A program made the translations under genes and the position numbers. Under the pieces are notes generated by a model that saw only the letters and a program-made list of their open reading frames with translations, did no database searches and had not been told where the DNA came from. A DNA stretch of 64,000 nt, from NCBI RefSeq assembly GCF_000970305.1, contig NZ_CP009517.1:3906001-3970000 (forward strand), in the 5' to 3' direction. The stretch is from Methanosarcina barkeri 3 (GTDB lineage: Archaea > Halobacteriota > Methanosarcinia > Methanosarcinales > Methanosarcinaceae). Positions 543-25,326 of this stretch are shown here, piece by piece (the first letter of the stretch is position 1; each line of letters starts with the position of its first letter).

Positions 543-2966
543 TCAGGCCCCCTTGCAAAGTCTCTTAAGGTTAGTTGGCTGTGCTGAGACATCGAACTTG
601 ATCTTCGGACCGGAGATAATCTTCCTTCGCTTCCAGTCAATTTCCCAGCCGTGCTCTGATTCCAGTCTCTTGAGGAGCTCTTCACGCTTGGCAAGCGGGA
701 GGTCAGCCTCGCTTCTGACGAACTTCCACCAGTCATCGGGTTCCACACCGAGGTACTTCTTGGAAAGCTCCATCCAGTGGGTGAGCTTGATGGATCTACC
801 CATGTTGTTATCTGACGGGCGGATGCAAGCCTTTGCCATCATCGGGAGTGCTTCTTGCCAGGTTTCTGCAGTTGTCAGCAGGAATTCCGGTGCTGGTGGG
901 ATGTTCATCTCTGAGCCGTCTCTTGCATCATAGACTTTCCACTTGGACTCGTCATAGTTTTTGGCAATCAGAGCTCTCCTATACTTGGAACCGTGGGGGC
1001 CGAGCACTGCAGGGATACCATAGATATTACATCCGGTACCTATTGAAGCAGCCTTCTGTGAGTATCCACCCCAGGCAAGTCCGCATGCACCTACACGGTT
1101 GAGAGTATAGTCCGCAATTTCAGCAAGGTTTCCTGCCAGGTTTCTCTGAGCAAAGATTCCGGCAACTTTCTCGGCAGCCCCACTGATGTGTGCGTTGGAC
1201 ACACAGGAACCAGTGTTAAGCAGTCCGCCGCCTGCGAATGTACCTGGGTACCTTTCGTAAAGTGTTTTGCCTTCTTCGTCCTTGTACATACCGATGTCCA
1301 TTGCAGAACAACCGCTTACAGCCAGGAGGTAGTTTCTCTTCAGGAACTCTTCGGCAATCAGGTAGACATCTTTAGTACCGCTCGGGTAATTCGGGCATCC
1401 GATAATAGCGATGATACCAGGAGTAGTTCCCATAACAAGGTTCAGGCCTTCTTTCCTGATTTCTGCGTCACTTGCCTGTCCTCTGCCCGCTCTAACCAAT
1501 CCTTTCTCTTCGCTGATAGCTTTCTGTGCAGCTTTCTCAATTACATTTAAGATTGGGATATCCTTCTTACAGACCTGTTCGCAGCGGCGGCACCCGATAC
1601 AGACATCGTGGATAGCTTCAAGGTACTCGTAGCTTCCTTTTGCTGCATATTCCATGGCTTCTGGAATATCCTGCTCTTCTGGGCATGCAAGCAAGCATTC
1701 TCCACACTTGGCACATTTGTCGATATATGCTTTGAATTCCTCATCAGTCGGAATTGCTGTTATGCCTTCTGCATCGCGGATTGGAGCCATTACTTCGGCA
1801 ATCTTCGGGACAAGTTCTCCAAGCTTGTCATAGTCCAGCATTACACAACCAGGAATTGCCCCTGACTTGATTTCCTCAACTATTGAATCTACATCTGCGT
1901 CTGTACGGTCTGGCAAGCCCATCAGAATTTTTTCGTTAGAAGCGATCACAGGGATCTTGAGTTTCTGGGACTCGGATAAAACATCACCACGGACGCACTG
2001 TTCGTCGACAACAATAACATCAGGCATTCCGGAGCGGATAACCTTCAGTTCTTTTGCTAGCGACCCAACGATCTTGGCGTATGGGACTCTCTTGTCAGCC
2101 TCTTTGTACCTGGTCATATCGAATGCGGTACAGCAAAGGCCGGCAATTTCCATCTTGTCGACCAGATTGTTGTCTTCCATGTAGTCCATAATATAGGTTA
2201 CACCGGCAACGTTGTGTCCGATTGCAACAATAAGTGGCTTGGACTTGTCTATGGTTCCCATACCGATTTCAATAAGTGGAGCTTCAGGATCAGCTTTCGG
2301 GAAGTCATATGCTGAGATCTGAGCAATATCGGAAATCTCCATACCGACGTGGTCAAGACTGCCGCTGAAAAGGGCTTTTGAATCGTAGTCAATTTCTGCG
2401 CTTTCCTGTCCTGCGTGAATGGTTGCAAGAAGTTGAGTGAGCTGTTCCTCAACGTACTCCATTGGGGCTCTGCATTCTCCAAGGGTCTTCGGGCTGTATC
2501 CTGTACAGATTGTGACGTTTGGAGTCAGGACATTAGATTCTCCGAGGTTGATAGGATAGTCTTCACCAAAGACTTCTATTACATGATCAAGCAGGTGGCG
2601 ACCGTGAGCAGCGTGGCATGCAGTACCTGTAATTACACGGAGGAAAAATTCCCTTCCTGTTTGGCCTGCCATGTCAATACCACAGGCACCTCTCTTGTTT
2701 CCAGATAGGTCACATGGTCCATAAGTACAGTAGCAGCACTGGTCACACATGGGGGTCAAGACAGGCTCATAGCGTTTGAGCAGGAGTAAGTTCCAGTCAT
2801 TTCTATAAGCTGCCATGCTTGCAAGAGGAGTCGGGCCCATTGGTCCTAGCTCTTTTTCTTCTGCTTCTTTGGCAACCTCCTTTGCTGCTCCTACAATATT
2901 ATTGATAGTGATCTGAACGGATTCTAGATCTTCTATAGAAAAACTCCCGGTAGTTAATTTACTCAT
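543..2966 (-). CDS. cdhA: acetyl-CoA decarbonylase/synthase complex, alpha subunit (CO dehydrogenase)
   Basis: This 807-aa nickel-iron CO dehydrogenase subunit interconverts CO and CO2 for acetyl-CoA cleavage or synthesis in the cytoplasm. Near residues 74-94 it has the Cys-rich block [12 protein letters not shown]...GACG that holds the B and D clusters. In the middle it has two ferredoxin-type 4Fe-4S motifs, [12 protein letters not shown] and [12 protein letters not shown], typical of archaeal CdhA. C-terminal cysteines for the Ni-Fe C-cluster appear in [25 protein letters not shown] and GACGLAWGG. The start has a textbook Shine-Dalgarno (TAGGAGGT) ten bases upstream. cdhB follows at a 2-base gap. 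Upstream lie about 200 bases of untranslated sequence and then a triplicated structured element (3164-4100). A regulatory long 5' leader for methanosarcinal cdhA is reported in the literature, to my recollection. Confidence 0.97.
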
Positions 2967-3163
2967 TTTAGCTTTACCTCCTAAATACGTTTAAAGTCGC
3001 TTTGCAGACGATTGCGTTTACAATATTTAGCATACAGATAATGATTATCCAATTATTGGTGTCTGCTTGAAAGTTCCAGCTATTTAAATGACATTTTTAG
3101 TAGGTCGTTTTTAACTTTTTATAGAATTTACACACTCACAAAACAAAATCAAGTACAGTAAAT

Positions 3164-3460
3164 TAAGCAGTTAAAACTTGAATTTTTAGAGAGTTGGAAG
3201 TTCACTGCTTTTATTTTAGACATCAAGTGAGTAAGTTCTATAATGGGAAGCGTTGTGATCTCAGAATAAAAGAGATCCTGGAGACTATCCGAAAAGTTCT
3301 ATGCATGTTGTAAATTTACAATTAGACAATTAGTGTTCATTATCCGGAATCCGTTCACTTATGATCTGCCGATTGTAGAAGTTACAGTAGGTCACAGCAC
3401 TTTTCAGATAAACTCTTAAATTACACATAAGCGACGTGTTATAAATAGCTTCCATTTTTG
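3164..3460 (-). promoter_or_regulatory. cdhA leader/promoter element, repeat copy 1
   Basis: This is the cdhA-proximal member of three tandem copies with a 322-base period. Read on the minus strand it begins with a purine-rich element followed by TATTTATA (3440-3447), a plausible BRE/TATA pair. A long-range helix then pairs TATCTGAAAAGT (3398-3409) with ACTTTTCGGATA (3286-3297). Within and after it are a GATCTC/GAGATC hairpin (about 3257-3276) and a 3' hairpin AGCAGT/ACTGCT (3166-3210). After that hairpin the U-run is weak in this copy, so transcription could continue into cdhA about 200 bases downstream. The strand is inferred from promoter shape and the neighbouring gene. Confidence 0.6.
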
Positions 3461-3485
3461 TTCGGTATAAATATAAAAATAAAAA

Positions 3486-3781
3486 TAAGCGTTAAAATAT
3501 GAACTTGTAGAGAGTTGGAAGTTCACTGCTTTTATTTTAGACATCAAGTGAGTAAGTTCTATAATGGGAAGCGTTGTGATCTCAGATAATAAAAGAGATC
3601 CTGGAGACTATCCAAAAAGTCCTACGCATGCTGTATAATTTACAACTGGGCAATTGGCGGTTATTATCCGGGATCATTCATTTGGGATCGGCCGATTGTA
3701 AAAGGTATAGTAGTCACAGCACTTTTCAGATAAACGTATAAATTACACATACGCGCGCAGTATAAATAGTTTCCATTTTTG
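3486..3781 (-). ncRNA. structured repeat copy 2, candidate stand-alone leader-like RNA
   Basis: This second copy of the cdhA leader element is roughly 85 percent identical to copy 1 by eye. The helices GATCTC/GAGATC and AAAAGT/ACTTTT are kept while the loops vary. On the minus strand its 3' hairpin is followed by a long U-rich tract (3462-3485), which looks like an archaeal transcription terminator and is much stronger than in copy 1. A TATTTATA box precedes it on the minus strand (about 3760-3768). It could make a small RNA that ends before copy 1. No protein-coding frame is conserved between the copies. Confidence 0.45.
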
Positions 3782-3807
3782 ATCGATTAAAATATAAAAT
3801 AAAAAAG

Positions 3808-4100
3808 TAAGCAGTTAACTCTTTGATTATTAAGGAGTTGAGAGTCCACTGCCTTATAAAGATTTCAAGTGGGCAAGTTATTAAATGGTAAATATTGTGA
3901 TCTCAGAATAAAAGAGATCTTAGAGATTACCCGAAAAGTCCACGCATGTTGTATAATTACAACTGGACAATTAGTGTTTATTATCCGGAATCCGTTCATT
4001 GTGATCGCTGATTGTAGAAATTACAGTAGGTCACAGCACTTTTCAGATAACCTCTAAATTACACATAAGCGACGTGGTATATATAGTTTTCATTTCTGTT
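3808..4100 (-). ncRNA. structured repeat copy 3, candidate stand-alone leader-like RNA
   Basis: This third copy of the element is the most diverged. The 3' hairpin arms change from AACTT/AAGTT in copy 1 to ACTC/GAGT here, consistent with compensatory change in a folded RNA. The GATCTC/GAGATC hairpin and the long closing helix are kept. On the minus strand the 3' hairpin is followed by a T-rich run (3782-3807), a probable terminator. A TATATATA box (about 4078-4085) lies at its upstream end. Confidence 0.45.
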
Positions 4101-4104
4101 TAGA

Positions 4105-4843
4105 TTAAATATAAAAACAAAAGTCCATAGTATAATAAATTCTATATAAACTCATAAGAACCGTCAATCTATGGTAGATCGTAAAAAACAGCATTATGCA
4201 CTTATTTTTCATAAGGGTAGTACATTAAATAACTGAATAAGATGTAAAAAGAAAGTACATTAAATAACTGAATAAGATGTAAAAAGAAAGTACATTAATT
4301 AGCAGGATTTTTACGTTAAATCAGATGTAAGAGGTAGAAAACAACCTCAGGATTAAAAAACATATGATATAAAGATATTAAGTAAACGTCGCAGTTGTAA
4401 TCGAGTTTATACAATTAGGAACTTACAGCTATTGTATTTGTACTTAAAACGCAGAGTTGTAAAAATGAATTTAGAGTTTATTAATTTATCAAGAGTTAAA
4501 GGTTGTAGCGTTAGTTATATATAATACTACACATTTGCGTATTTTGACGATCAACTAAATAAAGTGAAGTGTCAAAAGTCACGAAAACTGTCCAAGTTAT
4601 GGTTTCGGTCTAATTAAATCTAAGAATTAATTTTGGAAGTATGTTGCCATTGATTGACGATAGTTTGTATTTTAAGAGTAATTTGTGTTTAAGAGTAATC
4701 TGTGTTTAAGGGTAGTCTATGTTTTAAGAGTAGTTGATATTCACTCTAGTCCTTTAATGACGATGTTATGGTCAATACTTAAAACGATTTAATGAAATAT
4801 ATCGATCGATAGATATTTATTACGTGTCACATAGTGTAGTCTG
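4105..4843. other. non-coding AT-rich stretch with two tandem repeats
   Basis: No gene is supported here. It contains a 35-base direct repeat (tacattaaataactgaataa...) present about two and a half times at 4216-4300. A decaying repeat of about 18 bases, based on TTTAAGAGTAATTTGTG, occurs four times at 4665-4742. The DUF134 gene starts at 4844. Confidence 0.6.
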
Positions 4844-5344
4844 ATGGTCAATAGAGTTAAGCGCAGGATATCTTGTTTTCCAAAGGCCACCTATTATAAA
4901 CCCAGAGAGATCCCTCTTTGCTGTCTGGAGATCACCAACCTATCCATAGAAGAGATTGAGGCTATTCGTCTTTGCGACCTTCTTAAGATAGAGCAGAATG
5001 AGGCTGCTGACAGGATGGGAGTATCACGGAAAACTTTCTGGAGTGACCTCCAAAAGGCACGACAGAAGGTGGCTGATGCTCTTGTCAACGGAAAAGCGAT
5101 CGAGATTTCCGGAGGAGAATATGTTAGTACTGGTGAATGCAAGGTCGATTATATCTGTAAAGAGTGTGATCATATATGGGAACCAGAAGACAAACAGAAT
5201 CGGCCCACAAGCTGTCCGAACTGTGGTTCCAATCTAATTTTCCGACTCGGTGGCGATGGAAGAGGAATGAGGTTTATTGAGAATAATTATTGTTGCCCTA
5301 AAAAAAAGGAAAGCAGTAGAGACACCGGTGAAGTAAGCAAATAA
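4844..5344 (+). CDS. DUF134-family predicted DNA-binding protein with C-terminal zinc ribbon
   Basis: This 166-aa protein has the DUF134 (UPF0251) N-terminal region. It opens with a basic segment (RVKRRISCFP), continues with SIEEIEAIRLCDLLKIEQNEAA, and has a sigma-like helix-turn-helix at about residues 50-75 (AADRMGVSRKTFWSDLQ). The C-terminal half has a rubredoxin-like zinc ribbon with CKEC and CPNC (about residues 104-127). DUF134 proteins are predicted transcription regulators in archaea and bacteria; no target is known from the sequence. It stands alone, with more than 700 bases of non-coding DNA on its upstream side. The ATG at 4844 is the first in-frame start. Confidence 0.85.
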   Translation: MVNRVKRRISCFPKATYYKPREIPLCCLEITNLSIEEIEAIRLCDLLKIEQNEAADRMGVSRKTFWSDLQKARQKVADALVNGKAIEISGGEYVSTGECKVDYICKECDHIWEPEDKQNRPTSCPNCGSNLIFRLGGDGRGMRFIENNYCCPKKKESSRDTGEVSK

Positions 5345-24712: not shown

Positions 24713-25326
24713 TATAGTAAATTATCCTGAAGCAGAATTATTATACTTTTCGGATAGGCTCTTATGGTAATATATAAAAGGCTTTGTAGAAAACCTTACT
24801 TCGATGTAAATTATACAACATTTTTGTTTATGAGCTGATCCTAAAACTCAAAGTTATACTCAAATTTTCAGAAATACATAGGGTCCTTCCAAATCAGTAC
24901 TAAAACTAAGGGTATACAATGCTTATTTTAGATAATAGATATGCATTTAGGGTTTCTCCATCTAAAATACATCCTAAAAATCAATTCTTTAGGTAAATAA
25001 TATATAATACTCTTTTAAATCAAAAAGAGAGCGAAATAATTACTTTATTCCTTTACAATTTATGTTTATTTATAAATAAGGCATCTAATATCATTTTCAT
25101 CTATATAAAATTCAATGTTAAAAATAAGGAAAAAGCAACGTTTAATTTACCAATTAAAGTATCTAAATCAGTTAAACAACAAATAGATCCTTTAATGAAT
25201 GCATTTTTCAAGGGGTCTAGAAATACAGTATTTTTTAGTGAAATCAAAAATCAGGGATGAGAACCAATCCCATCCCCGTATTCAGTGTATCCAACACAAT
25301 AGTTTTCAATGACGAAAAGAGGAGTT
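24713..25326. other. AT-rich gap downstream of frhB
   Basis: No gene is called. A plus-strand frame without a start codon (ending in VKNKEKATFNLPIKVSKSV... at 25252) has protein-like composition and may be the 3' remnant of a decayed gene. A short palindrome GATGGGATTGG-like hairpin near 25255-25280 could end the frh transcript. Confidence 0.3.

Follow-up and report, generated by a model that had tools for sequence, protein, structure and literature searches.

Tandem MITE-derived units upstream of Methanosarcina cdhA1 as likely antisense RNA genes against the paralogous cdhA2

The cdhA1 locus and its tandem array

When methane is made from acetate, CODH/ACS (ACDS) is the central enzyme. The window, meaning the whole 64,000-nucleotide stretch that was analysed (C1:3906001-3970000 of a 4.56-Mb Methanosarcina genome, G000), carries the gene for its alpha subunit, cdhA1, followed upstream by a tandem array of promoter-hairpin units and a divergent DUF134 gene. 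Below, seeds A and B are the first and second halves of the apical loop of the unit hairpin.

543-2966, minus strand: cdhA1, CO dehydrogenase/ACS alpha subunit (PF03063)
2914-2929, minus strand: seed A target inside cdhA1, codons 13-18 (14/16)
3160-3481, minus strand: copy 1 (proximal, P), with promoter, ex-MITE hairpin and cdhA1-leader tail (TRF and alignment; orthologous P copies form one clade)
3416-3447, minus strand: P promoter, TATA box (3440-3447) and post-TATA motif ACACGTCGCTTATGTGTAATTTAA, conserved in all units
3281-3415, minus strand: ex-MITE hairpin of copy 1, its terminal inverted repeats being the "closing helix"; matches 40 dispersed elements of about 130 bp
3342-3357, minus strand: seed A of copy 1, TGAACGGATTCCGGAT, antisense to cdhA codons 13-18
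3328-3345, minus strand: seed B of copy 1, GGATAATGAACACTAATT, antisense to the cdhA2 mRNA 5' end (17 Watson-Crick pairs, 1 G-U)
3257-3278 (copy 1), about 3578-3601 and 3899-3920, minus strand: GATCTC/GAGATC hairpin following the ex-MITE, with a U-rich loop
3482-3802, minus strand: copy 2 (D1), recent duplicate of copy 1 with decaying loop (2 mismatches to the cdhA2 target)
3604-3737, minus strand: ex-MITE hairpin of copy 2 (alignment with dispersed copies)
3803-4122, minus strand: copy 3 (D2, distal), an old copy found in 6 related species (D2 clade); candidate sRNA gene
4054-4085, minus strand: D2 promoter, TATATATA box (4078-4085) plus the post-TATA motif also found in P, conserved in all units
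3923-4054, minus strand: ex-MITE hairpin of copy 3, probable sRNA body
3983-3998, minus strand: seed A of copy 3, TGAACGGATTCCGGAT
3966-3986, minus strand: seed B of copy 3 with 3 flanking bases, GGATAATAAACACTAATTGTC (18/18 to the cdhA2 mRNA 5' end)
4814-4843, plus strand: DUF134 gene promoter; the distance from TATA to start codon equals that from TATA to TSS in the units, and the post-TATA motif is degenerate here
4844-5344, plus strand: divergent DUF134/Zn-ribbon HTH gene with a sigma-70-region-4-like HTH, candidate regulator
Genome position 3595 kb, outside the window: cdhA2 paralogue

The three head-to-tail copies that the initial annotation had described upstream of cdhA1 were recovered on the minus strand at 3160-4122 (TRF score 1264, 3.0 copies, 81% matches), with pairwise identities of 75-86% in the alignment. 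The exact 322-base period ascribed to them has to be replaced by one of about 321 with indels (TRF, alignment). On the cdhA strand each copy begins with AT-rich sequence, continues through a TATA box and 24 conserved nt, and then forms a long hairpin. The box said to open every copy is present in each; the genome has just 3 matches to CGCTTATGTGTAATTTA at up to 2 mismatches, one in each copy. The TATC.GAAAAGT/ACTTTTC.GATA arms and the GATCTC/GAGATC hairpin were likewise found in 3/3 copies, and comparison between genomes supports copy 1 as the cdhA1 promoter-leader.

The element folds more strongly than its shuffles (z -3.5 for copy 1, z -6.5 for copy 3). Co-changing arms of the terminal hairpin, another feature claimed earlier, are seen between copy 1 and copy 3 (GAACTT/AAGTTT vs GGACTCT/AGAGTT); in copy 2 this helix is partly lost. 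Covariation between homologous loci had been proposed as a check of the structured leader, and in 33 units from 14 genomes the closing-helix arms do not co-change: two-sided changes number 3 vs 2.1 in shuffles, and most changes are one-sided, G-C/G-U. Within the element no helix covariation of the kind expected of a riboswitch-like structured leader was found above shuffle level. The U-runs noted after copies 2 and 3 belong to the AT-rich sequence with which the promoter of the next copy begins, and since every unit, the most distal included, begins with such an AT-rich/U-run stretch, they give no evidence of a dedicated terminator. The GATCTC/GAGATC hairpin is a possible 3' end of a short RNA.

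Rfam scans of the element returned no family at gathering and one chance hit, and no match to it was found in plasmid and phage collections. A short leader ORF (MNGFRIINTNC...) was rejected because its start codon and frame are not kept although all codon positions are conserved.

Origin of the hairpin and conservation of the distal units

Searches of related genomes returned the tandem units together with many dispersed matches limited to about 135 nt. Dispersed copies of about 130 bp with GAGCCTATCCGAAAAGT ends and without an internal ORF occur in several genomes, and G014 has about 25 exact ends of this type. In an alignment of 40 such copies the ends read GAGCCTATCCGAAAAGTG...GACTTTTCGGATAGGCTC and are flanked in nearly all cases by identical 3-bp TAA/TTA sequences (TWA target duplication). 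These inverted ends and 3-bp duplications identify the closing helix as the terminal inverted repeats of a MITE; judged by these relatives, the cdhA1 leader carries an old, diverged MITE insertion. The target duplication has decayed in the leader units (TAA vs CAG in copy 1). No transposase, as would mark an autonomous parent transposon, lies between paired ends at the loci that were read.

Several other repeats were noted on the way. The minus strand of the window has a solo GAGCCTATCCGAAAAGT end of the leader MITE family at 24745-24761, with no partner end nearby, and in G000 many solo GAGCCTATCCCAAAAGC sequences lack a partner end (e.g. 181444, 751018, 948588), possibly belonging to another short repeat family. 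The unit tail (around ATAGAACTTACTCACTTGA...AGCAGT) has relatives elsewhere, at L019:1501-1573 (G001) and also in G023, G003 and G016; that of G001 stands before a small ORF. The tail may be a second shared module.

Genus-wide, a class A leader or one related to it precedes cdhA at 27 loci and a class B leader with units at 13, and the two classes are alike only in the last ~150-190 nt before the ATG. Every class B locus holds 2-4 units: the group of this window has three in tandem, G003 has four, and a second group that includes G014 has two, 0.6-1.3 kb apart. Two further class B loci, G020 (where cdhA lies beyond the contig) and STD2_68 (G046), make 15 unit-bearing genomes, which are species representatives with common ancestry and not independent samples; the "no unit" status of G018, where the DUF134 neighbour is present and the contig ends before any unit, is uncertain. 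In the second group a decaying piece of cdhA follows the distal unit and DUF134 fragments lie between the copies, which points to relics of a larger tandem duplication. The array would have arisen by tandem duplication of a segment running from DUF134 through unit and leader to the start of cdhA, the coding parts having decayed, and in the group of this window it would later have been trimmed to units of about 320 bp. The cdhA 5' fragments behind distal units were considered as genes for small proteins and rejected, as they are decaying (start ATA in G014; stops).

Across species, D2 copies cluster in one clade and P copies in another, and fixed P vs D2 differences at sites flanking the loop argue against wholesale gene conversion. 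P copies are conserved along their whole length. Drift in the distal copies affects the linker, the tail and the upstream stretch, with a mean pairwise difference of 0.18-0.50; that of the apical loop is 0.000 in the D2 group and 0.047 in the other group. Variable sites among the six D2 copies amount to 0/40 in the loop vs 81/224 elsewhere (p 1e-7), and among 12 distal copies to 5/40 in the 40-nt loop vs 116/190 elsewhere (p 1e-8), with 10/38 in the promoter. The cdhA and DUF134 fragments adjacent to distal copies decay while loop and promoter are conserved. By this pattern of substitution the old distal copies are under selection.

It is quite improbable that the distal copies are unselected leftovers of duplication and that only copy 1 matters. 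Such leftovers would fit the several-fold faster overall evolution of the distal copies, the cdhA and DUF134 fragments between them and the partial deletion or decay of some, as with the relatives of copy 2 (D1) in G013 and G040; what they would not fit is an old distal loop and promoter conserved amid that drift, or the full loop-target match described below. This explanation is strongly disfavoured for the oldest distal copies and plausible for copy 2 of this window, which has lost much of its match to cdhA2 and is probably a recent redundant duplicate. The conserved TATA box and post-TATA motif of every distal unit could also mean that these units merely add starts reading into cdhA1. Such a role would leave the invariant transcribed loop and its cdhA2 match unexplained, and we regard it as highly improbable.

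Loop complementarity and co-variation with cdhA2

The invariant apical loop, 5'-UGAACGGAUUCCGGAUAAUAAACACUAAUU-3', is complementary to cdhA in both its halves. The first, TGAACGGATTCCGGAT, is antisense to cdhA codons 13-18 and pairs at 16/16, with one G-U, in most class A genes and at 14-15/16 in most cdhA1 genes; searched in 8 genomes at up to 1 mismatch, this 16-nt half matched, apart from two exceptions, nothing but unit loops and cdhA genes. The second, GGATAATAAACACTAATT, is fully complementary to AATTAGTGTTTATTATCC, which lies near -370 in class A cdhA2, and a 21-mer with 3 mismatches allowed matched units and cdhA2 only (G000, G014, G007). The seed B target lies 25-30 nt downstream of a TTATATA box, and in G015 it begins at -371, which is also the length of the M. 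thermophila cdhA leader. From the TTATATA spacing and the -371 start, this site is most likely nt 1-18 of the cdhA2 mRNA.

By duplex energy, cdhA ranks first among the 42 genes of the window. Seed A is predicted to be unpaired more than the element average (0.60 vs 0.41), and the target codons are predicted to have no particular accessibility in the mRNA (0.33-0.38 unpaired). Predicted hetero-dimers of unit RNA and cdhA2 mRNA used both sites in the majority of the pairs tested. Those of G000 P and D2, G014 P, G040 D2, G007 P and the distal copies of G003 combined 17-18 pairs at nt 1-19 with 11-13 at codons 13-18; those of G014_D1, G007_D1 and G045_D1 used the sites partly or not at all. A third cdhA in G014 (C1:5432856-5433299, L072) keeps the codon 13-18 target under another leader, without the 5'-end target.

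The match between distal loops and cdhA2 co-varies in trans. All 14 old distal copies of the 12 genomes first examined are complementary at 18/18 to the cdhA2 start of their own genome, and the cdhA2 leaders of G016, G008 and G046, fetched later, contained the predicted 18-mer, which makes 15/15 genomes. In G003 the target has changed from TT to CC and three distal loops from AA to GG; in G045 the target has changed from T to G and the distal loop from A to C, the proximal loop being unchanged. Distal-loop mismatches to the own cdhA2 number 0 vs 3.7 expected (permutation p 0.0075), and proximal copies do not track the cdhA2 target (p 0.26). The common target is present in 13/15 unit-bearing genomes, the other 2/15 having changed target and changed loop, and in 6/15 genomes without units.

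Synonymous changes in class A codons 15-18 were 0/52 with units and 11/56 without, the latter spanning at least 4 lineages, and in other class A codons 64/490 and 85/479, a comparison that is not taken as proof by itself, as phylogeny is not corrected for and wobble pairing would survive some of the drifts in unit-less genomes (TCT, GAG). In STD2_68 a cdhA1 codon-15 change (CAA) has no matching loop change.

A motif in double-stranded DNA would be identical at all these places, so matches and co-changes would be equally expected if the loop were a protein-binding site that also occurs at the cdhA2 start and inside cdhA, with the copies forming an operator array or decoy and perhaps looping the DNA. 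A candidate protein is at hand, as in 14/14 loci examined the predicted DNA-binding DUF134 gene is the neighbour of the units. The promoter of this gene bears, in several species, the unit promoter motif TATTTATAATACRTCGCATATGTGTAATTTGATG, with the start codon falling where the unit transcript should begin, a layout that would place the unit start at the MITE edge. This suggests that the DUF134 gene regulates itself and the units, and it probably has a co-regulatory role. The DUF134 promoter, however, has the post-TATA motif and not the loop motif, and DUF134 homologues occur in unit-less genomes with drifted cdhA2 targets, so DUF134 does not explain the loop-target match. Nor would a shared operator account for adjoining loop halves whose counterparts lie ~410 nt apart in cdhA2, one of them exactly at the predicted mRNA 5' end, or for the proximal copies of G045 and G003, which did not follow the change. 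We therefore consider a shared DNA operator unlikely.

In G023, G022 and G019 (L226, L230, L231), which have no units, a DUF134 homologue that is apparently leaderless stands under the unit promoter motif. Between the units and the DUF134 gene the window also has a perfect 35-bp tandem repeat of 2.3 copies (4219-4298) and a 17-bp tandem repeat (4671-4732).

Proposed mode of action and relation to known systems

Like trans-encoded sRNA genes, the distal units have a separate promoter of their own, their target cdhA2 lies elsewhere, and the complementarity is conserved and co-varying. The initial annotation had suggested that copies 2 and 3 could be free RNAs that titrate a regulator shared with the cdhA1 leader. 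The first half of that proposal gains from the promoter and functional core kept by distal copies. Titration of a protein or RNA regulator would agree with the promoter and hairpin that distal units have in common with the cdhA1 leader, yet the helices do not covary, the terminal hairpin drifts in distal copies, and the part that is conserved matches the cdhA2 mRNA. Antisense action is likelier than titration, since the loop matches this mRNA and co-varies with it in two lineages, and we hold titration to be extremely improbable.

Taken together, comparative sequence evidence makes it likely that the distal units are genes for trans-acting antisense sRNAs against cdhA2, built from an exapted MITE and a promoter, through which one isozyme operon would control the other. 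Each unit would combine a promoter with the exapted hairpin, the proximal one starting the cdhA1 leader. A distal unit would give rise to a short RNA of perhaps ~150 nt, beginning at the MITE edge and displaying the invariant loop, the 3' half of which would pair with nt 1-18 of the cdhA2 mRNA and the 5' half with codons 13-18, better in cdhA2 than in cdhA1. The order of the two seeds would allow a single RNA to hold both ends of the ~370-nt cdhA2 leader and so to clamp it. Most likely, activity of the cdh1 array would lower cdhA2 output; alternatively cdhA2 would be stabilised through a protected 5' end, and in our judgement repression of cdh2 is somewhat the likelier of the two. More tentative, and rather doubtful in its full form, is a transposon-born clamp RNA that binds the 5' end and the early coding region at once, loops out the ~370-nt leader, and is supplied by a species-variable tandem array, built by duplicating the promoter-leader of one of the two paralogous operons for control over the other.

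Two near-identical cdh operons are frequent in Methanosarcina, and control after transcription has been suggested for the isoforms, with no known mechanism (PMC4652020, PMC5112694); expression of both operons is higher on acetate (PMC12918732). A long 5' leader controlling CODH/ACS genes has been described (Anderson et al. 2009, J Bacteriol 191:7123), as cited in PMC3600222. As the class A leader of G015 starts at -371, that leader would be of class A, i.e. the target here. To the extent that this citation describes it, it is akin to the class B leader of the window only in the last ~150-190 nt, the MITE hairpin and tandem copies belonging to class B. In M. mazei the intergenic sRNA41 likewise acts on both ACDS (cdh) operons (Buddeweg et al. 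2018; PMC5867862). By the description given there, to which our comparison is limited, it masks ribosome binding sites within the polycistronic mRNAs, whereas the unit loop has its matches at the mRNA 5' end and at codons 13-18 and not at AGGAGG sites. sRNA154 of M. mazei, also conserved in Methanosarcina, likewise uses its loops to pair with mRNAs, and differs in its nitrogen regulon, single gene and unrelated origin (PMC5867862). The Coxiella sRNAs Cbsr3, Cbsr13 and Cbsr16 likewise derive from miniature inverted-repeat elements and have no known targets (review, PMC10969869); here a target, conservation and co-variation are seen, in an archaeal host. No description of the array as an RNA regulator was found in the literature searched, which lay outside the primary cdh and M. 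mazei transcriptome papers.

The analysis adds to the initial annotation a MITE origin, the second operon as target and a DUF134 gene with the unit promoter motif. If the proposed antisense action is true, a MITE insertion became an RNA regulator through which one cdh operon controls its twin. Its target would be specified to the single base and open to test in M. acetivorans, which is genetically tractable, and archaea would have an sRNA that derives from a MITE and whose target is supported by evolution.
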